Virus record (IMG/VR): IMGVR_UViG_3300021963_000303
Span: 1 to 38,289 of that record
Length of the DNA stretch: 38,289 nucleotides
Direction: 5' to 3' (one strand)
DNA from: a virus
Position 1 is the stretch's first letter. Each line of letters opens with the position of its first letter. Made by a program: the position numbers and the translations under genes. The notes under the pieces are model-generated. The model made no database searches. It was not told where the DNA came from and saw only the letters and a list, made by a program, of their open reading frames with translations. Positions 3,883 to 34,543 of this stretch are shown here, in pieces.

Positions 3883-3909
3883 GCAGTGGCCGTAAGGTCA
3901 CTGCTTTTT
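3883..3909 (+). terminator. strong intrinsic terminator
   Basis: GCAGTGGCC and GGTCACTGC form a nine-pair stem (one G-T pair) with a GTAA tetraloop, followed by six T. It separates the small-gene block from the structural genes that start at 3959. Confidence 0.85.
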
Positions 3910-3958: not shown

Positions 3959-5257
3959 ATGCCTAACTATAGAGATCCAAAAGATGAAAACCTTTACCCA
4001 GTACATAAAGTTCAGACATGTAGTGGGCGCCCCCTAGAAGTATCGACTACATCCGGTGCTGTTGTTTATACGCAACCAGGTACAACAGCTGGTGATGCAT
4101 TTGGGCGGCAACGAATTTCACAACTGTATACGATCTTTGATAGCCAGCATCGTTATCAAGAGAATGATAAGTGGACCACTGTTACTGGTGTTAGTGGAAC
4201 AACAACTTATCAAGTCAATCAAAGCGTTGTTGATTTAAATGTAACTACTCTTTCGGGTGATTACATTTATCGAGAAACCAAACGTGTGTTTCCCTACCAG
4301 CCAGGGAAATCCTTTTTGAATATGTCATCGTTTGTTTTTGCTTCTGGTAAAACAAACTTAAGACAACGCGTTGGTTTATTTGGTGCACAGAACGGAATCT
4401 ATTTTGAACAAAGCGGCACAACACATAATCTTGTTCTGCGTAGTTATGTAAGCGGCACTGTTAACGAAACACGTGTTGCTCAAAGCAATTGGAACTACGA
4501 TACGTTTAATGGCAATGGTCCATCGGCTCGAGTTTTAGATTCATCTAAAGCCAATATCTTTTGGATGGATATTGAATGGCTAGGTGTAGGTGATGTCCGT
4601 GCTGGCTTTGTGGTTGATGGGCATATGGAGATTGCTCACATCTTCCACAACGACAATCAAAACAACACAAGCTACATGACAACAGCAGTGCTGCCATTGC
4701 GCCAAGAAATTGAAAATCTTGGTACAACTGCATCTAGCTCTACGGCAAAACAAATCTGTGCAACGGTTGCATCCGAAGGTGGCTATGAGGGTTTTACTAG
4801 GCGTTATAACGTTGCTACCAGTACTACGCCTAAAACACTCACTTCATCTGGCGCAACTTATCCGCTGGTTTCAATCCGTATGGCATCAGGCCGTACAGAT
4901 AGTGTTGTGATTCCAGCCAATTTAAGTATTGCGCTTGAGCAAACACAAAACAACAAACCAGACATTATTCAGTACAAAGTATTACTTAATGCAACACTCA
5001 GTGGTGAAAACTGGCAGACTCATTACAACGGCAATGTTCAGTACGACACCACTGCAACAGGTGTAAGTGGTGGTACCGATGTTGTTGGTGGTTACATTGT
5101 TTCTGATGGCACACTCTCATTGAGTGATGTACGGGACTTTAACTTCCAGCTGGGCCGTACTCAATCTGGTGTCAGTGATGTGTTTACCGTTGTTGCTGCT
5201 CCAACTATCAGTGGTGCAAAAGTGTACACAGACTTGTCTTGGTTTGAAATTGTGTAA
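3959..5257 (+). CDS. phage virion structural protein (432 aa)
   Basis: The protein is rich in Thr, Ser, Gly and Asn with alternating hydrophobics, the profile of a beta-structured virion protein. The segment TAGDAFGRQRISQLYTIFDS (about residues 42-61) resembles a motif I remember from many cyanophage structural proteins (GDAFGRLRVS-type). No signal peptide or catalytic motif is seen. It stands alone between a terminator with promoter and the next head at 5295. A tail, neck or decoration role is an inference from composition and from the neighbouring large protein. Confidence 0.7.
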   Translation: MPNYRDPKDENLYPVHKVQTCSGRPLEVSTTSGAVVYTQPGTTAGDAFGRQRISQLYTIFDSQHRYQENDKWTTVTGVSGTTTYQVNQSVVDLNVTTLSGDYIYRETKRVFPYQPGKSFLNMSSFVFASGKTNLRQRVGLFGAQNGIYFEQSGTTHNLVLRSYVSGTVNETRVAQSNWNYDTFNGNGPSARVLDSSKANIFWMDIEWLGVGDVRAGFVVDGHMEIAHIFHNDNQNNTSYMTTAVLPLRQEIENLGTTASSSTAKQICATVASEGGYEGFTRRYNVATSTTPKTLTSSGATYPLVSIRMASGRTDSVVIPANLSIALEQTQNNKPDIIQYKVLLNATLSGENWQTHYNGNVQYDTTATGVSGGTDVVGGYIVSDGTLSLSDVRDFNFQLGRTQSGVSDVFTVVAAPTISGAKVYTDLSWFEIV

Positions 5258-5294: not shown

Positions 5295-5858
5295 ATGTAT
5301 ACTCCTGGTCTTCAAGCTCAGCAACCACCCCAGATGGGGGTGGAAACACCCCGAAATGGGGTGACTCCTGAGCCACAGGCCAAACCTAAAGCTCCTAGTA
5401 AATCAAAGAATGGTGATGTCGGGGCCTTCATCCAACAATGTATTTCCCTCTGCTCCTACCTCAAGGAACTTCAGACACAGTCCCATCTCATTCACCTGAA
5501 CTACGAGGGGTCGAACTTCCTCGGGGTGCATGGCTTCCTTAAAGACCAGTACGAAGCTCATCAGACTCAGTTCGATACGTTGGGTGAGTTCATCAGGTCA
5601 ATGGACTACCTGATGCCAATGTGCGCCAGGGGTCTGGCTGATGCAGGCCCTGGAATCCAGCATGTTACCAGCTACAAAGGTAATGATCAGCTCACCACGT
5701 ACTACAAAAACCTGGAAGAGCTGGGCATGAAGACCAAAAAGCTGGAGCCCATTGCTGCCAAGGTGGGTGCTATCGATATTCAGAACTACATGGCTGACCT
5801 CTGTGGCCAAGCCTTTAAGGCTGCTTGGTTTATTAAAGCAACGTTGCGGAATGGTTGA
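5295..5858 (+). CDS. Dps/ferritin-like protein with intact ferroxidase ligands
   Basis: Residues about 42-185 fit the four-helix Dps fold. Dps proteins form 12-subunit cages that oxidise Fe(II) with peroxide, store ferric iron and often bind DNA. The signature HLNYEGSNFLGVH is followed by a D and E helix. H67, H79, D94 and E98 have offsets 0, 12, 27 and 31, the same as H51, H63, D78 and E82 of E. coli Dps. The position of the fifth E. coli ligand (D67) holds K83 here, with D84 next to it. The last helix ends in AWFIKATL, like the W-L-A-L pattern of Dps helix D. The first 40 residues are a Pro- and Lys-rich disordered tail (KPKAPSKSKNG), comparable to DNA-binding Dps tails. The stop overlaps the next ATG (TGATG), so it is coupled to a large probable virion protein; it may act in the infected cell or be packaged. 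Length 187 versus about 160 is explained by the tail. Confidence 0.75.
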   Translation: MYTPGLQAQQPPQMGVETPRNGVTPEPQAKPKAPSKSKNGDVGAFIQQCISLCSYLKELQTQSHLIHLNYEGSNFLGVHGFLKDQYEAHQTQFDTLGEFIRSMDYLMPMCARGLADAGPGIQHVTSYKGNDQLTTYYKNLEELGMKTKKLEPIAAKVGAIDIQNYMADLCGQAFKAAWFIKATLRNG

Positions 5859-8248
5859 TGGAATTAACACCTGCAGAACGCGTTAAATTAAATGCAGCAA
5901 TTGTTAATGCTGCTAAAACTGGTCAACCTTTAGCAGGTGAACTGCAAAGCTTGTATGATCGTGCTGCTCAATTTGAAGCCACAAAGCAACAACAGTTAGC
6001 TCAACAAGCGGAACAATTTACAGCTGAAAAGGCTAGTCAAATTGCTGCAGAAAACTATACGAATAGAGGACCTGCTGGACTTTTGAATCCGGGTTTTCCC
6101 ACTAGATACAAACCTTTTACCACTACAGACCCAAACAAAACTGAACTTGGACTTAGAAAAGGAGTTGACTGGGGTTTTGCACAAGGACCAACTAGTGACT
6201 TGCCTGTAACAGACTTTAAAGAACTATACCCAAAACGGGTTCCTGTGTTTAATGAACAGTATACAGATTACGCACCAAACGTTGCGCCATTTGGAAAAGA
6301 GTTTGATTTTACAGAAGAACCTGTTGATATTAAAAATACAGAAACTGTTAACGAACGAGCTCAAAGATTTTTAGATCAGTACTTCCCCGGGCAAAAACCG
6401 GGGCAGGCAATAGTAAAGAACCCGCAAACATATCAGCCATATGGAAATGAATTAATTTTGCATGACGCAATGCATGACTTTGCCAATGTAGGTAATACAT
6501 TGCGCGGAGAAGAACTAATCACAATTGCAGAAAATGTCGGTGCAACTCCACTTGGAACAAATCGTATTGGTCTTAAGGGACTAACACAGCAACTTGAGTT
6601 TCTTGATGGTTTAGACCCTGGACAAGCTTATGAAAACGCAATAGATGTTGCGCGTGGAAACGCAAGGATGACTGGTCGAACTCTTGTTCAACAGCGTGGC
6701 GCTGCGCAAGGAAGTTCGTTGTTCCGTGATCAAAATAGAGTTGAATCTTTCTTGAGTCCTCCAATTAGTCAAGAAGAATTCAATACAATGGCTCAAAGGG
6801 GGCAAGAGTTTTACGATCAAGTCAATCAAAACTGGAATGCGTTCAAGCACGGAGGCTCCGTTGAATGGGACAATGCACGCACACGTGAAGCTCTCATTAA
6901 ACGCAATGAAGCCCTAGATGAATTTATGGGCAGTGATCCCACAAAATCCTACGGCCCTCCCCGTGTAATAACACAAAGAATTGCTGGTGGATACAACAGA
7001 GGTGGCATCCCTTATGGAAATCCACTGTCTCTAATGAATGCACCCTTAGTTCCTACTGTAGATCAAGATCTTTACGTTCAAGAATTACAAAATAAAATCA
7101 ACCAAGCAGCTCCCGTTCTTAGGGCTGCTATTGAAAAAGAAGAACAATTCTTTAATACACCAGAGCAAATTACTTTAAGGGAGGCGCCAAAACAATGGGA
7201 GCTTAGAGCTGATGCTTTAAACGAAATGAGCAAAGGCTATGTTTTACCTGAAACAATTAATAGTCTTAAAAATCAGGGAATTGAAGTAGCGTCTCCTGAA
7301 TTTGAAAGAGATTTGCGTGTATATCAGGCTTTGTTGGGAGACAAAGCTATTGGTGGCCGCACGGTTCGTGATGTTCTAGAAGATACAATTGGGCCTGAGC
7401 CGCGGCTGCCTTCCACGCGTCAAGTTGCTCCTATTGCAGCGGATACAAATGATGTAGCAGGCAGATGGAATAAATCAATGTTCAGAGATCCTAATTTCTT
7501 CCAAGATTTAAAAGAAGATGTAACTCTTAAAACTGCTCTTGATGAAGCCCTTACCACTGCCCGTGGTGCACAACCAGGAACACGCGGATTTGCCGCTGCT
7601 GCTCCAGTAGATATAGGGCCAGAAGGAAGAATTTACTTGAATCCAGCAAATTTGGGTGCTAACGCTAACTTAGATCCTGTTGCGTATACTACTAATGTTT
7701 TTAAAGGCGCCAATATTGATCCAAAAGATGTATTGGTAGATGCTGCTGCTAAAGCAAAACAAATTGAAGCCTATAGAAAAGCACTGCCAGGTATTAAAAA
7801 TGCCATACGAACTGGCTTTAATACAACAACAGACATTGCTGGTTCTGTTCCGTTGTTTGATCCAGAGTTTAGGCAAGCTATTGAACAAGGTGACGCACGT
7901 AAAGCAGCTACTCAAGTTGCAAAAGAATATGCAATTGGTACAGCACTTGCTCCAGTGGTTGGTGCTGGTGCTGGACTTGCTCAACGTCTTGCTCCACAAA
8001 CTGCTGCTGCTGTAATCCCTGCCGCTGCTACTGCTTTACGTATTGCTAATCCAGTTGCAGTTGTTTCTCAATTAGGTGGTTCGTCTAAAATCAATGCCGC
8101 AGCAGATAAAAAAGCAGCACAAGCGCAGCTGCAACGTGCAGAAGCTGCCCGCAAACGCGGTGGTAAATGGAAGTTCCCAACTCCTTTTGGTACCGTGACA
8201 ATTCCTGAACTGGGAATCTCAGAGGCAGGCGGTTTATTCTTCCGTTAA
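5858..8248 (+). CDS. large probable internal virion protein (796 aa)
   Basis: ATG at 5858 overlaps the Dps-like stop; an in-frame TTG three bases earlier is less likely. Residues 1-60 are a Gln/Ala-rich coiled-coil-like helix. The middle is long, polar and Pro-containing without a recognised domain. Near the C-terminus (about residues 700-755) lie two or three Ala/Val-rich hydrophobic segments (GTALAPVVGAGAGLAQ and following), then a basic Ala/Lys/Arg helix. Great length, a late hydrophobic region and a neighbouring structural gene suggest a protein carried in the virion that meets the membrane at entry, but no homologue was recognised. Its TAA is interlocked with the stop of the HNH gene on the other strand. 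Confidence 0.6.
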   Translation: MELTPAERVKLNAAIVNAAKTGQPLAGELQSLYDRAAQFEATKQQQLAQQAEQFTAEKASQIAAENYTNRGPAGLLNPGFPTRYKPFTTTDPNKTELGLRKGVDWGFAQGPTSDLPVTDFKELYPKRVPVFNEQYTDYAPNVAPFGKEFDFTEEPVDIKNTETVNERAQRFLDQYFPGQKPGQAIVKNPQTYQPYGNELILHDAMHDFANVGNTLRGEELITIAENVGATPLGTNRIGLKGLTQQLEFLDGLDPGQAYENAIDVARGNARMTGRTLVQQRGAAQGSSLFRDQNRVESFLSPPISQEEFNTMAQRGQEFYDQVNQNWNAFKHGGSVEWDNARTREALIKRNEALDEFMGSDPTKSYGPPRVITQRIAGGYNRGGIPYGNPLSLMNAPLVPTVDQDLYVQELQNKINQAAPVLRAAIEKEEQFFNTPEQITLREAPKQWELRADALNEMSKGYVLPETINSLKNQGIEVASPEFERDLRVYQALLGDKAIGGRTVRDVLEDTIGPEPRLPSTRQVAPIAADTNDVAGRWNKSMFRDPNFFQDLKEDVTLKTALDEALTTARGAQPGTRGFAAAAPVDIGPEGRIYLNPANLGANANLDPVAYTTNVFKGANIDPKDVLVDAAAKAKQIEAYRKALPGIKNAIRTGFNTTTDIAGSVPLFDPEFRQAIEQGDARKAATQVAKEYAIGTALAPVVGAGAGLAQRLAPQTAAAVIPAAATALRIANPVAVVSQLGGSSKINAAADKKAAQAQLQRAEAARKRGGKWKFPTPFGTVTIPELGISEAGGLFFR

Positions 8249-8528: not shown

Positions 8529-8575
8529 TTTATCAGGATTCTTGATAAACGTGGTTTATTGAGATTCTCGATAAT
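8529..8575. repeat. two tandem 21-bp near-palindromes
   Basis: Unit A (8529-8549) has arms TTTATCA and TGATAAA. Unit B (8555-8575) has arms based on TTATTGAG and CTCGATAA. The units match at 16 of 21 positions, 26 bp apart. One arm pair changes from A-T in A to G-C in B, keeping the dyad. They fill the space between the tRNA 3' end and the HNH gene. They could be operator sites, paired RNA hairpins or recombination sites. Confidence 0.6.
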
Positions 8576-8648
8576 CGGAGATGCAGGATTTGAACCTGCG
8601 GCCCTCTGCTCCCAAAGCAGATGCGCTACCAAACTGCGCTAATCCCCG
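8575..8648 (-). tRNA. tRNA-Pro (anticodon UGG)
   Basis: A complete 74-nt cloverleaf can be folded on the minus strand. The acceptor stem pairs CGGGGAT with ATCTCCG (one G-T), and the D-stem pairs GCGC with GCGC. The anticodon stem TCTGC/GCAGA encloses loop TTTGGGA (anticodon TGG at its centre). The variable loop is five bases and the T-arm is GCAGG-TTCAAAT-CCTGC. The discriminator is A and CCA is not encoded. UGG reads CCA and CCG and may help a phage with a codon bias unlike its host. It is the only tRNA I find. Confidence 0.95.
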
Positions 8649-8651
8649 AAT

Positions 8652-8734: not shown

Positions 8735-9412
8735 TTATTCTACATCTTTTTCGTTGGGTGTCTTCCAGAAATAGTCATCACATTCCCCAAGACGACCCCA
8801 TTTGGGGGCGTGTTCTACATCAAAGTATCGGGTTGATACCTTAAAGTCTGGGGTCTTAAGGTCATGATTGCTTAGTGATGGATCAACCATGCGGCAACGG
8901 TTATTGGGATAAGCGCCAATTTGACCGTTGTCCAAAACCACAATGTTGTGAGATTTGTGTTCATCGGGAAACTCCGCAAAGTAAAAGTCAGGTTCGTTCC
9001 TATGTGGATGATAGTTGTCAATCGTAAATAGGTATGTGCCCGTCATTACACCGGCACTGCGTGTCATCACTTGAAACTCCATGTTATAAATCAAGTTCTT
9101 TTCAATAACCGTAAGCCCGGTGTCAAACCCGTTCCAAAACTGCAGGTCGGTTAGCTCCAAGTCTGGTGTTGGACTTTCTGGTTTTTCCGGATGGTTGGGA
9201 TCCCACGCAAGAAATGCACTGATCGGAAGCTTGTCATACAACGCACCGTACTCAGTCAAGTACGTTTCAAAGTACAGAGCACGGCCAGTAAGTGATTTGC
9301 AAGTGACCCAGTAGCCAGGCGTGTACTCACCATGGCCATCACGAAGGTCACGCAGGTACTCACGACGCACCCAAACCTTGACTGGAGGCACGTTGGCTAC
9401 AAGAGTAGTCAC
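8735..9412 (-). CDS. conserved cyanophage hypothetical protein (225 aa)
   Basis: Starts with GTG at 9412 directly after the T-run of a terminator. The sequence has a pattern I remember from several cyanophage genomes: VRREYLRDLRDGHGEYTPGY near the N-terminus, a GRALYFETYLTEYGALYDKL block, an aromatic middle (DNYHPHRNEPDFYF), DEHKSHNIVVLDNGQIGAYP, and TPDFKVSTRYFDVE near the end. The strong conservation suggests a core phage role, but I know of no function. It is soluble and rich in aromatics. The tRNA follows about 86 nt downstream. Confidence 0.75.
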   Translation of the reverse strand: MTTLVANVPPVKVWVRREYLRDLRDGHGEYTPGYWVTCKSLTGRALYFETYLTEYGALYDKLPISAFLAWDPNHPEKPESPTPDLELTDLQFWNGFDTGLTVIEKNLIYNMEFQVMTRSAGVMTGTYLFTIDNYHPHRNEPDFYFAEFPDEHKSHNIVVLDNGQIGAYPNNRCRMVDPSLSNHDLKTPDFKVSTRYFDVEHAPKWGRLGECDDYFWKTPNEKDVE

Positions 9413-17864: not shown

Positions 17865-20487
17865 TACAAATCGGCAAGCCCTCAAGCCCGGTGAAATTCG
17901 GCTCGATTATATCCCTATCGATTGGCCGCTGACCCCGCTCGGTCCAAACAAAGATCCTTACATTGCTGGCTGGCAAAATAAGCCCTATAGCCCCCAGGAA
18001 ATCGAGAGTGAAGTCCTGGCTGGTCGCTGTAAAGCTGTTGGTCTGCTTGGTGGTCCGGTCTACAACCATCCCTATGGTTTGGTTTGGGTTGATGTCGACG
18101 GCCCCACCGTCTACAAACTCATTGAAGATCTCTCTGAGCTGTCCTTTGCGGAAGCTCTTCCTTCAACGCTGACCATCCTCAGTGGTAAAGAGGGTCGCGA
18201 ACGGAAGTTGTACCGTTTGTCACGAGATCAACACAAACAATTTGTACGAAACAAGTACACCTGGCACGCAGAAGGAACAAAAGAAAAACTTGAAATTCTT
18301 TGGAAGCGTCACCAGGGTGTTCTCATGGGTTTGCACCCTGAGACCGAGGGTTACTTCACCGCTCTAGATCAAGGGTTTGAGTGGATCCAGGAGTTGCCAG
18401 AATTTCCGGAATGGCTACTGAATGCAATCGTTCAAAAGAACATCAAACAAGGTGTTCCCGCTAAAGAAACCACTCGCATTGTCGGTCCTTCTTTTGCCAT
18501 CAACGCAGAGATTGACCTAGAGCGTGACATGCAGTTGGCGCTGGAGGCTATGTGGGGCATGCCGCCAGAAGCAGCAGATGACTACGACATCTGGATCACT
18601 GTTGGTCAGTCGCTTCACTCGTTAGATGAATCGCTGCTTGATCATTGGGATGAATGGTCCCGGCAGTCGGATAAATATCAAGAAGGTGAATGCCATCGGC
18701 GGTGGCGTTCCTTCTCCAAAGGTGGTGGACGTGGTGTCGGTTCTCTAATCCATGTCGCCAAAGAGAACGGTTGGAAACCGTCAGAAAATCACAAAGCAAT
18801 GAACGTAGATGACACCATGCTTGATCACGTTGCAAAATTATTAACCGAATTGGAAGAGGACTTGGGTTTGGCTCCAGTTGCTGAAAAGGAGACAGATGAA
18901 GGCGAAACAAAGGTTTATCGTCGTCGAAGCAGTCCTAACTATGGTGGAGGAAATGGTGCTAAACAAAAAACTCGCAATCCATCCTCGGATGTAATTGCAT
19001 CAATCTTGTTGCAAAATTATCAGGGCAATCTTCGGTATAGCCAGTCGCACGGTGCATTCTTTATGTATCAGTACCACAGCAAAGGACTGTGGTCACAACT
19101 ATCGGAATATGAAGTAAAAGGTGATATCAAGGGTCAGCTTGATTCCATCAAGGATGGTCTGCTGCACAGTGGCTACTCGATGAATCTCATCTCCGACTTA
19201 ATGGAGCAATTAAGGATCTCAACAATTTTTGATGATTGGTACGAGGGTAATGATTACCTGCTATTTACCAATGGCATCTTGAAGGTTGACAGCAGGGAGC
19301 TGCTTCCCTTTGACCGGGAGATGTACATCACTCAACAACTACCATACGAATACGATCCATACGCAGGTTGTGAGCCCATCATTAAATGGTTGAAGTCCAC
19401 GCAACGTGACAGCTGGGGTCGGGTCCAGGTGCTGCGTGCTTGGCTTCGTGCCGTACTCCTGAGTCATTCAGATATTCAAAAGTTTGTTGAGATTGTTGGC
19501 CCCGGTAAGTCCGGTAAATCCACTTATTCCAACCTTGCTCATGCATTAGTTGGTGATGACAACGCCATGATCTCCTCGCTGGAGCATCTGGAAAAGAACC
19601 GATTTGAAACTGCTAACCTTTACAAAAAGAAACTTCTGCTCTTCAATGATGTTGAGCGTTACGGCGGATCGGTCTCCGTCTTAAAAGCAATTACAGGTCG
19701 TGACTTGATTCGTAATGAGCGCAAGTTCCAGGCCGGCAGCCAGAAACCATTTAAATTTAATGGTCTGGTCATGATCACGGCAAACGAACCCATCCAAACT
19801 ACTGACCCAACCTCTGGTTTAGCTCGTCGTCGTCTCACCATTCCATTCGATCAACCGTTCACAGGCAGTTCTGCAGAACAGAAAACCTTGATCGATATGG
19901 ATGATCATGGTCGTCCCTTTGGGGAATTTGCGTCTTTACTTCCAGGTCTTGTGAATTGGGTTCTCGATATGTCTGCGGCTGAGATGCGTGAATACCTGAT
20001 GGAGACCAATGAGAAAGTTGATTTCTTTGCCAAGCATCACCGTGAACAAATCCTTAAATCCAACCAAATCCTTGATTGGATGCAGCATTGTGTGGTCTTT
20101 GACGCAGGGATTGCTACTCCTGTTGGCCTCGCAAAACACGCTCCGGGTGGCGTCTCCAACTTGTACATCAACTGGGACAAATGGCTGTATGCCAGTTACT
20201 GTGAATTCTCACGTGGTTCAAACAGCAACATCCTTGGTCGCAGCCGGTTTGAATCCCTACTGATGGATGTATGTGTGCATCAACTTAAATTAAATGTCTA
20301 CCAATTCAAAAACAGTCGCGGAATGCGTGTTGTCAACATCGCACTACGGGCATCTGGTCCCAAGTACGAACAGTATCCGTCCTTGGTAGAAGTTGGTTTA
20401 AATAAAGAAGAATGGCGTACTTTCTATGGTGACGTGTTAGATAAAACATCTGATGCGACAATGGAAGAGGTAGCAAGCGAACTGTGA
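17857..20487 (+). CDS. primase-helicase (prim-pol / D5-like SF3)
   Basis: An 876-residue replication protein in three parts. The N-terminal prim-pol-like region (about 15-190) includes VGLLGG and VWVDVDG, whose D79-V-D81 fits the catalytic metal site. A PriCT-2-like linker (about 222-310) includes IWITVGQSLHS and GRGVGSLIHVAKENGW. The C-terminal D5/SF3 helicase has Walker A GPGKSGKST (548-556), Walker B-like LLLFNDVE near 595, and the arginine region LARRRLTIPFD near 665. Such proteins lay primers and unwind DNA at viral forks. A polymerase is not in the window. The end overlaps speD (GTGA). ATG at 17857 is supported by the overlap with the previous stop. Confidence 0.9.
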   Translation: MTNTNRQALKPGEIRLDYIPIDWPLTPLGPNKDPYIAGWQNKPYSPQEIESEVLAGRCKAVGLLGGPVYNHPYGLVWVDVDGPTVYKLIEDLSELSFAEALPSTLTILSGKEGRERKLYRLSRDQHKQFVRNKYTWHAEGTKEKLEILWKRHQGVLMGLHPETEGYFTALDQGFEWIQELPEFPEWLLNAIVQKNIKQGVPAKETTRIVGPSFAINAEIDLERDMQLALEAMWGMPPEAADDYDIWITVGQSLHSLDESLLDHWDEWSRQSDKYQEGECHRRWRSFSKGGGRGVGSLIHVAKENGWKPSENHKAMNVDDTMLDHVAKLLTELEEDLGLAPVAEKETDEGETKVYRRRSSPNYGGGNGAKQKTRNPSSDVIASILLQNYQGNLRYSQSHGAFFMYQYHSKGLWSQLSEYEVKGDIKGQLDSIKDGLLHSGYSMNLISDLMEQLRISTIFDDWYEGNDYLLFTNGILKVDSRELLPFDREMYITQQLPYEYDPYAGCEPIIKWLKSTQRDSWGRVQVLRAWLRAVLLSHSDIQKFVEIVGPGKSGKSTYSNLAHALVGDDNAMISSLEHLEKNRFETANLYKKKLLLFNDVERYGGSVSVLKAITGRDLIRNERKFQAGSQKPFKFNGLVMITANEPIQTTDPTSGLARRRLTIPFDQPFTGSSAEQKTLIDMDDHGRPFGEFASLLPGLVNWVLDMSAAEMREYLMETNEKVDFFAKHHREQILKSNQILDWMQHCVVFDAGIATPVGLAKHAPGGVSNLYINWDKWLYASYCEFSRGSNSNILGRSRFESLLMDVCVHQLKLNVYQFKNSRGMRVVNIALRASGPKYEQYPSLVEVGLNKEEWRTFYGDVLDKTSDATMEEVASEL

Positions 20488-20834
20488 GCAACGGCCGTCA
20501 TCTTATCCTTGATCTGTACGACTGCGATCAAGCTCTTCTTGATAATTACGAAGAGCTTGAACGGTTGCTTCAGGTGTCACTTAACATGGCGGGTGCCAAA
20601 ATCTTGCGGATTTTTGGTGAACAATTCCAGCCGCAAGGCGTGACGCTACTGGCATTGCTGGCGGAATCTCACGCTTCCATCCATACTTGGCCTGAGTTGG
20701 GGTATGCAGCTATTGATCTTTATACCTGTGGAGACACCACTAACACGCATAGGGCAGCCGAATTTTTAAAAACTAAACTCAAAGCAAATCAATCAACAGA
20801 AAAAGAGTTAGTGCGTTCTATAACTCCTCAATAA
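20484..20834 (+). CDS. speD: S-adenosylmethionine decarboxylase (SpeD)
   Basis: Converts S-adenosylmethionine to decarboxylated SAM, the aminopropyl donor for spermidine. The self-cleavage site ESHASIHTWPE is present: cleavage between E61 and S62 makes the pyruvoyl group. H67 and C82 (LYTCG) are the other conserved residues. At 116 aa it is a little shorter than bacterial class 1b enzymes (about 120-140), and the family core looks complete. The GTG start overlaps the primase stop (GTGA), so it is probably translated by termination-reinitiation. speD is a known auxiliary metabolic gene of marine cyanophages; polyamines may help DNA condensation or replication. Confidence 0.93.
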   Translation: MSNGRHLILDLYDCDQALLDNYEELERLLQVSLNMAGAKILRIFGEQFQPQGVTLLALLAESHASIHTWPELGYAAIDLYTCGDTTNTHRAAEFLKTKLKANQSTEKELVRSITPQ

Positions 20835-29393: not shown

Positions 29394-32285
29394 TTAAGTC
29401 ACAATGTGATTGAGAAACGCTTCTTCCAGATTTTCCAGGCGTGTGGAAAGTTCTTGTACAGCTTTTACCAAAATTGGATAGGTCTTCATTGTATCAGCTT
29501 CCCACATTAAAGGATTGTCTTTATGGACAAGACGTGTGTATTGCTGTGTACCAAACTGCTGTTCAACTTGATCCAGCTCTTGGGCAATAAACCCAAAATC
29601 TTTACGACCTTTTCGAGAGCCATCACGTGTTGCCCAATCAAATTTTACAGGACGCAACGCTTTAATAAACGTTACGCCAAATGGCAGATCTTCAATATTG
29701 GTTTTGTCTCTTATGTCTGAAAGGGTTGAAATTGTTGTATCAGCACAACGTAAGTTAACAACGTTGGCGTCACCAAGTGTAAATTCACCAGTAACTGTTG
29801 CAGCAGAAGCCTGAGCCTGGTTACCAATACATGTGTTGTTAACACCTGTGGTAATTGTGCTCCCTGCGTTATCACCAATTGCAACATTTTGATTTCCTAT
29901 TGTATTGATGCGTAAAGCGCCAGAACCTATTGCTATATTGGAAGCACCTGAGGTATTAAAAAATAAAGCGTTTGGACCTATGCCAATGTTATTACTGCCT
30001 GTCGTATTAGAGTATAAACAACTACCGCCAATGGCAATATTATAGCTGCCAGTTGTATTCGAGAATAGAGCCTGATAACCAACTGCAGTACTCTCAATAC
30101 CTGTTGTATTAGTGCGCAGGGCTTGATAGCCGACCCCAACCATATTGCCAGATTTGTTATTTTCCAACGCAAAGGAACCAACTGCAGTACTAGCTGTTCC
30201 TGTTACATTTAAACGAAGAGCGCTCCCTCCAATGGCGGTATTGTAATTACCTGTTGTACTAGTCTGAAGAGTACTATTTCCAATGCCAACATTGGTTGTG
30301 CCAAATGTATTACCAATTACTGCAAAAGAGCCAATACCAATATTATTGGTACCTGATGTATTACCGTTTAAAGCAAGGTAACCAACAGCTGTATTATTGG
30401 TGCCTGTTGAGTTAACGGATAAAGCACTGTTTCCAATTGCAACATTAAAACTTCCTGTTGTATTATTAACCAACGAAGTAACTCCAACGGCGGTATTGTT
30501 TGTACCAGTTGAGTTGGTAAACATGGATGATCTGCCGATAGCAGTATTATCAGCGCCTGTTGTATTTGTTTGCAACGCACCGTAACCAACCGCGGTCATT
30601 CTGCTGCCCGCCGTATTATAAAATAAAGCGTTAGCACCAATAGCTGTATTTTCAGTACCTGTTATGTCAGTGGTTAATGCAGAAGATCCAACGGCGGTAT
30701 TGTAATTACCTGTTACGTGAGCCTTACCTGCTTGATAACCAAAAGCAGCATTAGCAAAAGCAGTTGTGTTAGCGTTTAAGGCTTCATATCCAACCGCGGT
30801 ATTACCACCAGCTGTACTATTGGAGCGCAGCGCATTAAAACCAACCGCTACGTTAGCAGTTGCTGTATTAAGACGTAATGCATTTGCGCCAACAGCAACG
30901 TTAGCAAATCCAATTAAATTTGTATATAAACCACTGAGACCAATAGCAATATTTTGACCGCCTGATGTATTACTGTATAGAGCCTGATAACCAATCGCAA
31001 CATTCTCAGCGCCTGTTGTATTAAACGTTAATGCAACAGAACCTACTGCAACGTTTCGATTGCCTGATGTATTACTATCTAAAGACTGATAGCCAACTGC
31101 AGTATTATCGCTACCAGTTGTGCTTAATAAACCTGCCTGATAACCAATAAATGTATTATTAACGCCGGTATTAACATTGCCAGCTTGATAACCTAAAGCA
31201 GTTTCAAAAGGACTTGCAGAATCAGTAATGCCGGATAAGCTGGATCCTGCTGTTACCGCTGCCCATGTGGTGGTTCCATTTCCATTTGTTTGTAAATAAA
31301 ATCCTGATGTTCCAGTTATTGTAGGAAAACTGTATAGACCATATGGTCGAATATCACCACTACCACTGATAACGATTACATCACCGGAAGCTCTGTAAAT
31401 ACTGCCAGAAATCTGATTCGTAAAAACACCGGTTGCAAAATTGGCAGTAGTTCCAGTTACCGTTACACCTGTAATAGATGTAAAACTACCGGCATTCCCT
31501 GTAATGGTTGCACCAGACAGCTGACTTGTAAATACACCATTTACACCATTGAGATTGGTGGCAAAAACCGTTGTGCCAGTGATGCTTGCACCAGATAACA
31601 GGTTAGTAAAGACACCATCTACGCCATTTAGGGTAGTGGCAGAAACCGTGGTGCCAGTAATTGTTGCACCGGACAATTGAGTTGTGAATACACCACTTAC
31701 GCCATTAAGAGTGGTAGCAGAAACTGTGGTACCAGTTATCGTTGCACCAGATAACTGGTCACTGAAGACACCACTTACACCGTTAAGGGTGGTAGCAGAA
31801 ACCGTAGAACCGGTAATTGTTGCACCAGATAATTGGGTGCTGAATACACCACTTACGCCATTAAGAGTGGTAGCAGAAACTGTGGTACCAGTTATCGTTG
31901 CACCAGATAACTGGGTGCTGAATACACCACTTACACCGTTGAGAGTAGTGGCAGAGACCGTTGTACCAGTGACGGTTGCACCGGATAACTGGGTGCTAAA
32001 GACACCGCTTACGCCAGTAATGCTTGTTGCAGCAACCGTAGAACCGGTAATTGTTGTTCCAGATAATTGCGTTGTAAATACACCTGTTACGCCTGTAATA
32101 CTGGTGGCAGAAACGGCGACACCCGTAATAACGTTTCCAGATATTTGTGTAGTAAAAACGCCACTCGTTCCTAAAACGTTTGCGCCGCTAACACTATTAA
32201 TAAATACACCAGTTTGTCCCGTAATGGTGTTCAGGGAAAAAATATTTCCACTGCTGGAATCGTAAGAGCTATATTTGATGGCCAT
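29394..32285 (-). CDS. tail fibre with repeat shaft and S74 chaperone
   Basis: A 963-residue receptor-binding-type fibre. The N-terminal third (to about residue 290) has 26-residue repeats (SGVFSTQLSGATITG.. type), followed by a SGSGDIRPYG module. The middle has about 26 17-residue units (NTAVGYQALYSNTTGSN type), like the left-handed beta-roll head of trimeric adhesins. Residues 856-963 are the intramolecular chaperone peptidase S74. S856 in SDIRDK and K861 form the probable self-cleaving pair, and GFIAQELDQV and a terminal heptad helix follow. S74 trimerises and then cuts itself off. The start overlaps the upstream fibre stop (ATGA). Confidence 0.9.
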   Translation of the reverse strand: MAIKYSSYDSSSGNIFSLNTITGQTGVFINSVSGANVLGTSGVFTTQISGNVITGVAVSATSITGVTGVFTTQLSGTTITGSTVAATSITGVSGVFSTQLSGATVTGTTVSATTLNGVSGVFSTQLSGATITGTTVSATTLNGVSGVFSTQLSGATITGSTVSATTLNGVSGVFSDQLSGATITGTTVSATTLNGVSGVFTTQLSGATITGTTVSATTLNGVDGVFTNLLSGASITGTTVFATNLNGVNGVFTSQLSGATITGNAGSFTSITGVTVTGTTANFATGVFTNQISGSIYRASGDVIVISGSGDIRPYGLYSFPTITGTSGFYLQTNGNGTTTWAAVTAGSSLSGITDSASPFETALGYQAGNVNTGVNNTFIGYQAGLLSTTGSDNTAVGYQSLDSNTSGNRNVAVGSVALTFNTTGAENVAIGYQALYSNTSGGQNIAIGLSGLYTNLIGFANVAVGANALRLNTATANVAVGFNALRSNSTAGGNTAVGYEALNANTTAFANAAFGYQAGKAHVTGNYNTAVGSSALTTDITGTENTAIGANALFYNTAGSRMTAVGYGALQTNTTGADNTAIGRSSMFTNSTGTNNTAVGVTSLVNNTTGSFNVAIGNSALSVNSTGTNNTAVGYLALNGNTSGTNNIGIGSFAVIGNTFGTTNVGIGNSTLQTSTTGNYNTAIGGSALRLNVTGTASTAVGSFALENNKSGNMVGVGYQALRTNTTGIESTAVGYQALFSNTTGSYNIAIGGSCLYSNTTGSNNIGIGPNALFFNTSGASNIAIGSGALRINTIGNQNVAIGDNAGSTITTGVNNTCIGNQAQASAATVTGEFTLGDANVVNLRCADTTISTLSDIRDKTNIEDLPFGVTFIKALRPVKFDWATRDGSRKGRKDFGFIAQELDQVEQQFGTQQYTRLVHKDNPLMWEADTMKTYPILVKAVQELSTRLENLEEAFLNHIVT
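29810..31200. repeat. 51-nt repeat array in tail fibre
   Basis: About 26 in-frame copies of a 51-nt unit encode NTAVGxxALxxNTTGxx. The units vary at most positions outside the framework, suggesting an old array with sequence drift rather than recent slippage. Array ends are approximate. Confidence 0.8.
31480..32210. repeat. 78-nt repeat array in tail fibre
   Basis: Roughly nine copies of a 78-nt unit encode VFxTQLSGATITGTTVSATT and LNGVSG. Central copies (about 31620-31990) are nearly identical at the DNA level, which implies recent duplication or gene conversion. A long opposite-strand reading frame is a by-product of the period. Boundaries are approximate. Confidence 0.75.
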
Positions 32286-34543
32286 CAGTCAATTACCCAA
32301 CCTTGTGAAAGATTTGCATAGATCAACCTAAAACGAGCGTTTAAATCGTCAATCTGCAAATCATCTGCTACACCCATTATATTATTCCCATTTCGCAAAA
32401 GAAGCCCAGTAGTTGTATTACTTCTGTTGATAACTCCCACATAACTACCCGTGGCGGGTGCTGCGGGTAGTGTAATCGATGCTCCACTGATTAAAACATA
32501 ATATGTATTAGAAACACCGGTAATATTTTCCGTAATTACACTAATGTTTTCTGCAGCTGAAGGGATTTGGATTTCAACCCAGCTCGTTGTTCCATTTGCA
32601 TTAGTAGATAAAACATAACCGGAAACGCCTGTTCCTACTGGAAAACTGTATGCGCCATAAGGCCGGATGTCGCCAGAACCACTGATAATTACAATGCCGC
32701 CACTCGCGTAATATGTATTTCCAGAAATTAACCCAGTTGTAAAGATACCGCTTGCAAATGCTCCACTTCCAGAAACAAAAAGATTTCCACTGGTGAGCAA
32801 ACCGGAACCAAAAATTCCGCTACCACTTACAGTAAGATTTCCAGTTGTTGACGCTGTAAAGTTTACATTTCCAGCGTTAAGTGTTCCAAAAGTACCTACG
32901 GTTGCATTAATAGAATTTCCGGTAATGGCATTGCCCGAGATGTTTGAAAATGTTCCTGAAATTCCGGAAATGACTGTAAATAAACCAGTGACACCAGTTA
33001 CTAGTGGCGAGTAGATTCTATTTGCGAAAGTTCCACTAACTCCTGTCAGATGTGTAAATAGTCCTGTAGAACCTGTAATGGTGGCACCTGACAAATCAGT
33101 AAAAACACCAGATCGAAATGTTCCGGATGTACCCGAAATCGTGCCGCCTGTAATTGTATTCCCGCTGATGGAATTAAACGTTCCTGTTACAGCGGTAAAT
33201 GAAGTTGCTTGAATTGTATTTCCTGTAATTAAAACACCGGATATTAAACCGGTTGCATTAAGGGAGGAACCTGTGGCCGTATCAAAAATAAACGTTTGAC
33301 CTGTAACCGTATTCCCTGAAATTGTTCCGGAAACAACGAGGCCTGAGCTGATAATTCCGCTTCCCAATACAATTAAATTACCATCAGCGGATAGGTTACC
33401 CGTAGTGGAAATCGAAGGAATTGAAATGGTATTCGTAAAAATACCTGTTGTAGCCGTAATTGTTGTAAATTGACCACTTGTCCCGGTGATAGTGGCTCCG
33501 CTGATATTGGCTGTACTTGTAAGGCTACTAACAGTTACTGTGTTAAAAAGACCTGTTACGCCGGTAATAACAGCCCCGGATAATCGATCCGTAAAAACAC
33601 CGGTAACTCCTGTAAGATGCGGAAATATCCCTGTTGCACCACTGATAAAAGAAAAAGTTGCAGTATTTCCAGAAACACTTTGTCCTGTAATATTTGTGAA
33701 TGCACCTGTTGTTCCTGTGATCGTTGTTCCAGATGCAATGGTGAATAAACCGGTTACTGCGTTTAGGTTTGTAAATTGTCCCGTTACACCCGTAACTATT
33801 GCGCCAGAAACACGTGAAGTGAAAACACCTGTTACGCCTGTAATCTGATCAAAGAGTCCTATATTTCCTGTAATAACAGCACCGGACAAACGGCTTGTAA
33901 AAACACCGGAAATGCCAGTAATGTTTGCAAAAGCGCCTGTATTTCCTGTAACAGTTGCACCGGATAAATAAGAAGTAAAAACACCAGTGACACCAGTGAT
34001 GCTGGTTCCATTAATGTTTATTCCAGTAATATTGTCCCCTCTAATAAGTTGACCTGTAATACCACTTGCGGCAATTGCATTTCCAGTGATTGTCGCACCG
34101 CTAAACGTTGTTGCTGTAACAGTGCTAAAACCTGCACTTGTTGATTGTAATGAAATGAAGTAACCACTAACACCATTAATATTGGTACCAAGAATGCTGG
34201 CACCTGTAATTGTTGTACCGCTAATGCTGCCGGTACTACTAAAATTATTGATAACAACGTTATTAAGATTTACTGTTCCCGTTCCAGCGCTTGTTATATT
34301 GCCTTGAACAGTTAAGCTACCTGAAACATTCAGGTTATTCTCAATGCTTAAATTGTTGCTGAGAGCGCCGCCAGTTAACTGAAGATAATATTTGTTTAAG
34401 TAAGCCTTATGTTCTTGGAATGTAAATTTCTTATTTTTTAATCCTGGGTCAACTTCTGAAACGTGGACAACAGTAAACAGATCGGCATCTTGAATGTCGA
34501 AAGAGGTAATCGAAGGCAGATCCGTAATGCGCCTGTTGGCCAC
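32285..34543 (-). CDS. tail fibre, N-terminal anchor plus SGA-ITG repeats
   Basis: 752 residues. The N-terminus (RRITDLPSITSFDIQDADLF, VVHVSEVDPGLKNKKFTF) is the cyanophage-type fibre anchor I remember, likely binding the baseplate or tail. Then many irregular GVFT-LSGA-ITG beta repeats follow, then a SGSGDIRPYGAYSFP module shared with the downstream fibre. The C-terminal domain (VITENITGVSNTYYVLISGA and after) may be a receptor-binding or capping domain. It has no S74. Start is GTG at 34543. The stop overlaps the start of the second fibre, so the two could be made in fixed ratio and work as one fibre. Confidence 0.85.
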   Translation of the reverse strand: MANRRITDLPSITSFDIQDADLFTVVHVSEVDPGLKNKKFTFQEHKAYLNKYYLQLTGGALSNNLSIENNLNVSGSLTVQGNITSAGTGTVNLNNVVINNFSSTGSISGTTITGASILGTNINGVSGYFISLQSTSAGFSTVTATTFSGATITGNAIAASGITGQLIRGDNITGININGTSITGVTGVFTSYLSGATVTGNTGAFANITGISGVFTSRLSGAVITGNIGLFDQITGVTGVFTSRVSGAIVTGVTGQFTNLNAVTGLFTIASGTTITGTTGAFTNITGQSVSGNTATFSFISGATGIFPHLTGVTGVFTDRLSGAVITGVTGLFNTVTVSSLTSTANISGATITGTSGQFTTITATTGIFTNTISIPSISTTGNLSADGNLIVLGSGIISSGLVVSGTISGNTVTGQTFIFDTATGSSLNATGLISGVLITGNTIQATSFTAVTGTFNSISGNTITGGTISGTSGTFRSGVFTDLSGATITGSTGLFTHLTGVSGTFANRIYSPLVTGVTGLFTVISGISGTFSNISGNAITGNSINATVGTFGTLNAGNVNFTASTTGNLTVSGSGIFGSGLLTSGNLFVSGSGAFASGIFTTGLISGNTYYASGGIVIISGSGDIRPYGAYSFPVGTGVSGYVLSTNANGTTSWVEIQIPSAAENISVITENITGVSNTYYVLISGASITLPAAPATGSYVGVINRSNTTTGLLLRNGNNIMGVADDLQIDDLNARFRLIYANLSQGWVID

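Follow-up and report, generated by a model that had tools for sequence, protein, structure and literature searches.

A lineage-wide Dps-family miniferritin with intact ferroxidase ligands in S-EIVl-like cyanophages, a probable protector of phage DNA during infection

Proteins of the Dps family bind Fe(II) between two subunits, oxidize it with H2O2, and store the product. What would a virus of a photosynthetic cell do with such a protein? The question is raised by a stretch of viral DNA of 38,289 nucleotides (IMG/VR record IMGVR_UViG_3300021963_000303, positions 1 to 38,289; hereafter the window), in which a sequence-only reading had noticed a gene for a Dps-like protein. The account that we favor, and consider probable as a whole, is that an S-EIVl-like cyanophage uses this gene to make an active miniferritin of the Dps type, which protects phage DNA during infection. 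The gene and its parts are as follows.

5295..5858 (stop included), plus strand: Dps-family miniferritin gene (dps), 187 amino acids, assigned from Pfam Ferritin, phrog_3636, a profile of Dps chains, and the Dps fold
5295..5414, plus strand: N-terminal tail, residues 1-40, from alignment, pLDDT, and dN/dS
5493..5588, plus strand: ferroxidase ligand segment, residues 67-98 (H67, H79, D94, E98)

The open reading frame (ORF) runs from an ATG to a TGA at 5856-5858. Its product matches Pfam PF00210 (Ferritin) at 1e-8 and 35.6 bits, against a curated cut-off of 24.5 bits that the proteins of its relatives likewise exceed, and among the PHROG families it matches phrog_3636 (phage DNA binding protein / Dps) at 1e-26, covering positions 8-148 of the 149 in that profile. 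Solved Dps/NapA chains are matched at 2.3e-4 with the single sequence and at 8.5e-8 with a 32-member profile, and the columns of H67, H79, D94, and E98 align with the ligand columns of those chains. The four residues have the offsets 0, 12, 27, and 31 that had been claimed for them, giving the spacing H-x11-H-x14-D-x3-E, and the expected HxNxxGxNFxxxH context reads H-L-N-Y-E-G-S-N-F-L-G-V-H. Judged by these scores, the resemblance to the Dps family is far above chance. The gene is not a recent copy of a host DpsA, since the cyanobacterial DpsA equivalog NF052461 scores only 17.2 bits against a cut-off of 300 bits. A family-alignment scan of genome contigs found no cellular relatives, which is weak evidence, as just two phage-specific peptide patterns were used.

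Structure prediction had been proposed as a test that could refute the reading, and it returned a four-helix ferritin fold that retrieves Dps structures. In the AlphaFold2 (AF2) model, built from 30 related sequences, helices at residues 41-69, 75-102, 131-156, and 160-186 form a four-helix bundle with core pLDDT mostly 84-97; the model also places a possible short helix at 104-109 in the B-C connection, where residues 101-120 form a low-confidence loop (pLDDT 59-73). The top PDB matches of the model in Foldseek are all Dps proteins. VIA-align gives Dps chains Z scores of up to 18.9 at 2.1 Å and bacterioferritin-like chains 18.8, so that Z alone cannot split the subfamilies; it is the ligand motif that separates Dps. 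Membership of the bacterioferritins or ferritins, with its nearly equal VIA Z, is disfavored by that motif and by the sequence and Foldseek rankings. With Pfam Ferritin, phrog_3636, the Dps/NapA profile, and the AF2 model in agreement, the proposal of a phage-encoded Dps-like protein is upheld, and we think it very likely that the window protein is a Dps with ferroxidase chemistry.

It nevertheless departs from a typical Dps in two places near the predicted metal site. Dps proteins usually have a Trp after the first ligand His, and in the window protein and nearly all of its relatives a Leu replaces it (HLN in 78 of 82 distinct core sequences, HWN in none of the 82). The position of E. coli Asp67, which we take to be a residue near the ferroxidase site, is occupied by Lys, Gly, or Arg in this lineage. 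Together, the Leu and the missing acidic residue may alter the kinetics of the enzyme.

The Lys/Pro-rich tail of about 40 residues that had been described is present and is N-terminal. Alignment of the relatives gives it an invariant MY start, a linker of variable length, and a conserved basic QxKPKxPxKSK segment, and residues 1-38 are predicted to be disordered (pLDDT < 50). The tail has lysines at positions 30, 32, 36, and 38 but a small net charge, about +2 to +3, so that strong DNA binding is not assured. A search of MYT-start ORFs for a tag common to other phage proteins found just one unrelated ORF, of 83 amino acids.

The IMG/VR scan for dps yielded 208 encoding stretches, of which 80 were kept. 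The four ligands are retained in all 81 complete distinct members of the lineage; of the 82 distinct cores, the sole exception to the complete H-x11-H-x14-D-x3-E pattern is truncated at a contig end. On every one of the 50 lineage contigs that extend at least 7 kb downstream of an independent anchor gene, the one at 1460-2173, dps was found, usually 2-5 kb from the anchor. These contigs were all picked by similarity to the window and include near-duplicates, so the standing of dps as a core gene is claimed for this virus lineage. The PF00210 match is single in each of 12 larger records; these were chosen from loci known to carry dps and speak to copy number rather than prevalence. The median dN/dS of the core is about 0.09 (pairs with usable dS) and that of the tail about 0.27, both approximate at a dS near 1, and by this measure strong purifying selection acts on the core. 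Conservation of the site reaches farther still: the Dps proteins of SU10, Privateer, GAP52, LAh_9, S-SRM01, and Coruscant share 15-23% identity with the window protein, and an alignment of these six with the window and S-EIVl proteins has eight invariant columns, four of which are the ligands. Phage Dps proteins thus seem as a rule to keep the ferroxidase site intact. That a ferroxidase-competent Dps should be a core gene of a widespread cyanophage lineage suggests that control of iron and peroxide matters while photosynthetic cells are infected.

Many genes of the window are colinear, or partly rearranged, with those of Synechococcus phage S-EIVl (KJ410740), with identities of 65% for the primase, 67% for the exonuclease, 78% for the dCTP deaminase, and 83% for the gene at 8735-9412. 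From this likeness we infer that the host is a picocyanobacterium. Around dps the window carries the following features.

3883..3904, plus strand: intrinsic-terminator-like hairpin, nine pairs followed by T6 (a consensus match only; the total count of such matches is not above that in shuffled sequence)
3959..5257, plus strand: upstream gene, 432 amino acids, virion structural protein family (phrog_1645, 3e-107)
5858..8248, plus strand: downstream gene, 796 amino acids, its start overlapping the dps stop by one base (TGATG)

The hairpin thus precedes a cluster of virion gene, dps, and 796-amino-acid gene. The phrog_1645 family is common to T4-like cyanophages and phage HMO-2011. The overlap of the dps stop with the next start was correctly described: the ATG lies at 5858, although an alternative TTG at 5855 would give a product of 797 amino acids, and the TGATG arrangement fits translational coupling of the two genes. 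The description of the downstream product as a probable virion protein could not be established, since it has no significant match in Pfam or PHROG and none in phage records, and its model is poor (mean pLDDT 48). Toward the C terminus it has a conserved, hydrophobic region rich in Ala and Gly, as might be seen in a particle protein or a membrane-active protein. Among relatives, 49 filtered downstream ORFs fall into several clusters that are mutually without detectable similarity, and only a few of the ORFs are near the 796-amino-acid protein. The gene after dps is swapped among several families, some of which share only a C-terminal module, yet overlap or abutment with the dps stop is often kept. 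The proposed coupling to a virion gene therefore does not hold for the downstream partner, which varies and is only a putative virion gene; it holds better upstream, where 61 of the 82 distinct relatives have a phrog_1645 gene directly before dps. S-EIVl is not among them, no copy of that gene being detectable within the part of its genome that was compared. A tRNA-Pro (TGG) lies shortly past the 796-amino-acid gene (8574-8649, minus strand; ARAGORN).

The earlier remark that no described case was known in cyanophages does not survive comparison with existing records: S-EIVl carries a "DNA-binding ferritin-like protein" and S-SRM01 an annotated Dps. A literature search for Dps in cyanophages found no paper that discusses them. 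The S-EIVl protein (AHV82153.1) is an orthologue, 67% identical over 178 residues, with the same type of tail and the same ligands, and its gene, in a broadly colinear genome, likewise overlaps the next gene by one base; it differs in lacking the upstream phrog_1645 gene in the part compared and in having a different downstream protein of 488 amino acids. The S-EIVl gene directly after dps (AHV82152.1, 15534-17000) is annotated "sulfate adenylyltransferase" but has no Pfam or PHROG match, and the annotation appears to lack support. The S-SRM01 Dps (QPX48251.1), from a phage of another family (Kyanoviridae), has the same four ligands but only about 15% identity and no N-terminal tail.

Outside the cyanophages, CDS67 of the Kuravirus SU10 falls, like the window protein, in phrog_3636. 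The SU10 and Privateer proteins have identical ligand spacing but about 15% identity, HWN rather than HLN, and other tails, and their genes, unlike that of the window, adjoin thioredoxin and nucleotide metabolism. Bacterial Dps/NapA proteins (such as 3kwo, 3t9j, 1dps, and 8ff9) share the four-helix fold and the H-x11-H-x14-D-x3-E site, at roughly 14-23% identity, with the usual Trp where the window has Leu and with unlike tails. A structural match in BFVD, the ferritin-like protein of Lactobacillus phage Semele, is also a phage-encoded Dps, at 19% identity and from a phage of a Gram-positive host; for such proteins of L. plantarum phages, protection against iron and peroxide has been proposed (PMC6669764). 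The window gene thus joins phage dps genes already annotated and, going by these records, is not unprecedented in cyanophages. BFVD also holds Dps-like folds inside longer proteins of uncultured phages that are named prohead protease (A0A6J7WPK9, A0A6J7XDU5, A0A6J7WIS1), a hint of Dps domains within capsid-maturation polyproteins and of capsid association.

How might the protein act? We propose that its subunits assemble into a 12-mer in which H67 and H79 of one chain, together with D94 and E98 of its two-fold partner, would bind Fe(II). H2O2 would oxidize the bound iron and the ferric product would be deposited inside, removing both Fenton reagents at once, while the basic tail at the N terminus may tether the 12-mer to DNA. 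Infected cells would produce the protein, in most relatives from a gene cluster that includes a virion gene, and the result would be less Fenton damage to replicating or new phage DNA in a photosynthesizing, peroxide-producing host. On balance we lean toward such protection inside the infected cell as its main role.

The adjacency of dps to a virion structural gene in those 61 relatives also fits a second reading, in which Dps travels in the particle beside the genome, or attached to the particle, and is handed over at infection, guarding the packaged DNA or carrying iron-handling capacity into the next host. Proteomics of other phages points the same way. The SU10 Dps, of the same PHROG, was found in phage preparations by mass spectrometry (six peptides, 35.8% coverage; PMC4281155), and the Privateer Dps was detected in CsCl-purified virions (PMC7881722). 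The SU10 preparation, however, also contained proteins without a structural role, DNA polymerase and thioredoxin among them (PMC4281155), so that co-purification, of which a dodecamer may be capable, is a possible source of the signal. Moreover, SU10 dps is a middle gene, Privateer dps lies among genes of nucleotide metabolism, and S-EIVl dps is not adjacent to a phrog_1645 gene, which was not detected in the part of that genome compared. By analogy with SU10 and Privateer, packaging in this lineage is plausible; as the explanation of the gene we regard it as possible and give it tentative standing. The fuller proposal, that the lineage packages an active Dps as cargo, co-expressed with virion genes and carried in with the genome to guard it from photosynthetic peroxide at entry, seems to us doubtful. 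The detection of Dps in particle preparations of relatives makes a miniferritin in or on the virion directly testable with S-EIVl.

A third reading makes the protein chiefly an iron buffer. It would hold iron set free from dismantled photosystems and iron-sulfur proteins and either supply it to phage iron enzymes or keep it back, and DNA protection would come second. The intact ferroxidase ligands speak for this reading, as does a 2OG-Fe(II)-oxygenase-like protein (phrog_61, 3e-23) encoded in the window; but in family and tail the protein is more like a DNA-protecting Dps than a 24-mer storage ferritin, and no iron-linked gene adjoins dps in the window, which leaves this reading unlikely. Least probable by far is a structural or DNA-organizing role with vestigial ferroxidase chemistry, which the conserved basic segment of the tail and the fact that some Dps proteins act on DNA without iron would favor, because the four ligands do not vary in any complete relative or in the remote phage Dps proteins, and a vestigial site would not be expected to show such constancy.

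Comparison with S-EIVl brought out several further features of the window. The gene at 8735-9412 (minus strand), the best conserved between the two, is called "ferredoxin" by PHROG (2e-96) and "PurM" in the S-EIVl record and has no Pfam match, so that at least one of the names is doubtful. The plus-strand ORFs at 1460-2173 and 1803-2423, with S-EIVl matches of 58% and 45%, overlap in different frames and are possibly an overlapping gene pair or the product of a wrong start assigned to the second. At 20484-20834 (plus strand), a single ORF of 116 amino acids corresponds to two S-EIVl stretches that lie side by side in different frames, and the first of these is annotated as S-adenosylmethionine decarboxylase proenzyme; the S-EIVl counterpart may contain a frame break or a frameshift. 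Finally, two large adjacent genes at 29394-34543 (minus strand), of 963 and 752 amino acids, match one S-EIVl stretch several times, and the 963-amino-acid product resembles tail-spike and virion families, which suggests duplicated, repeat-bearing receptor-binding proteins.
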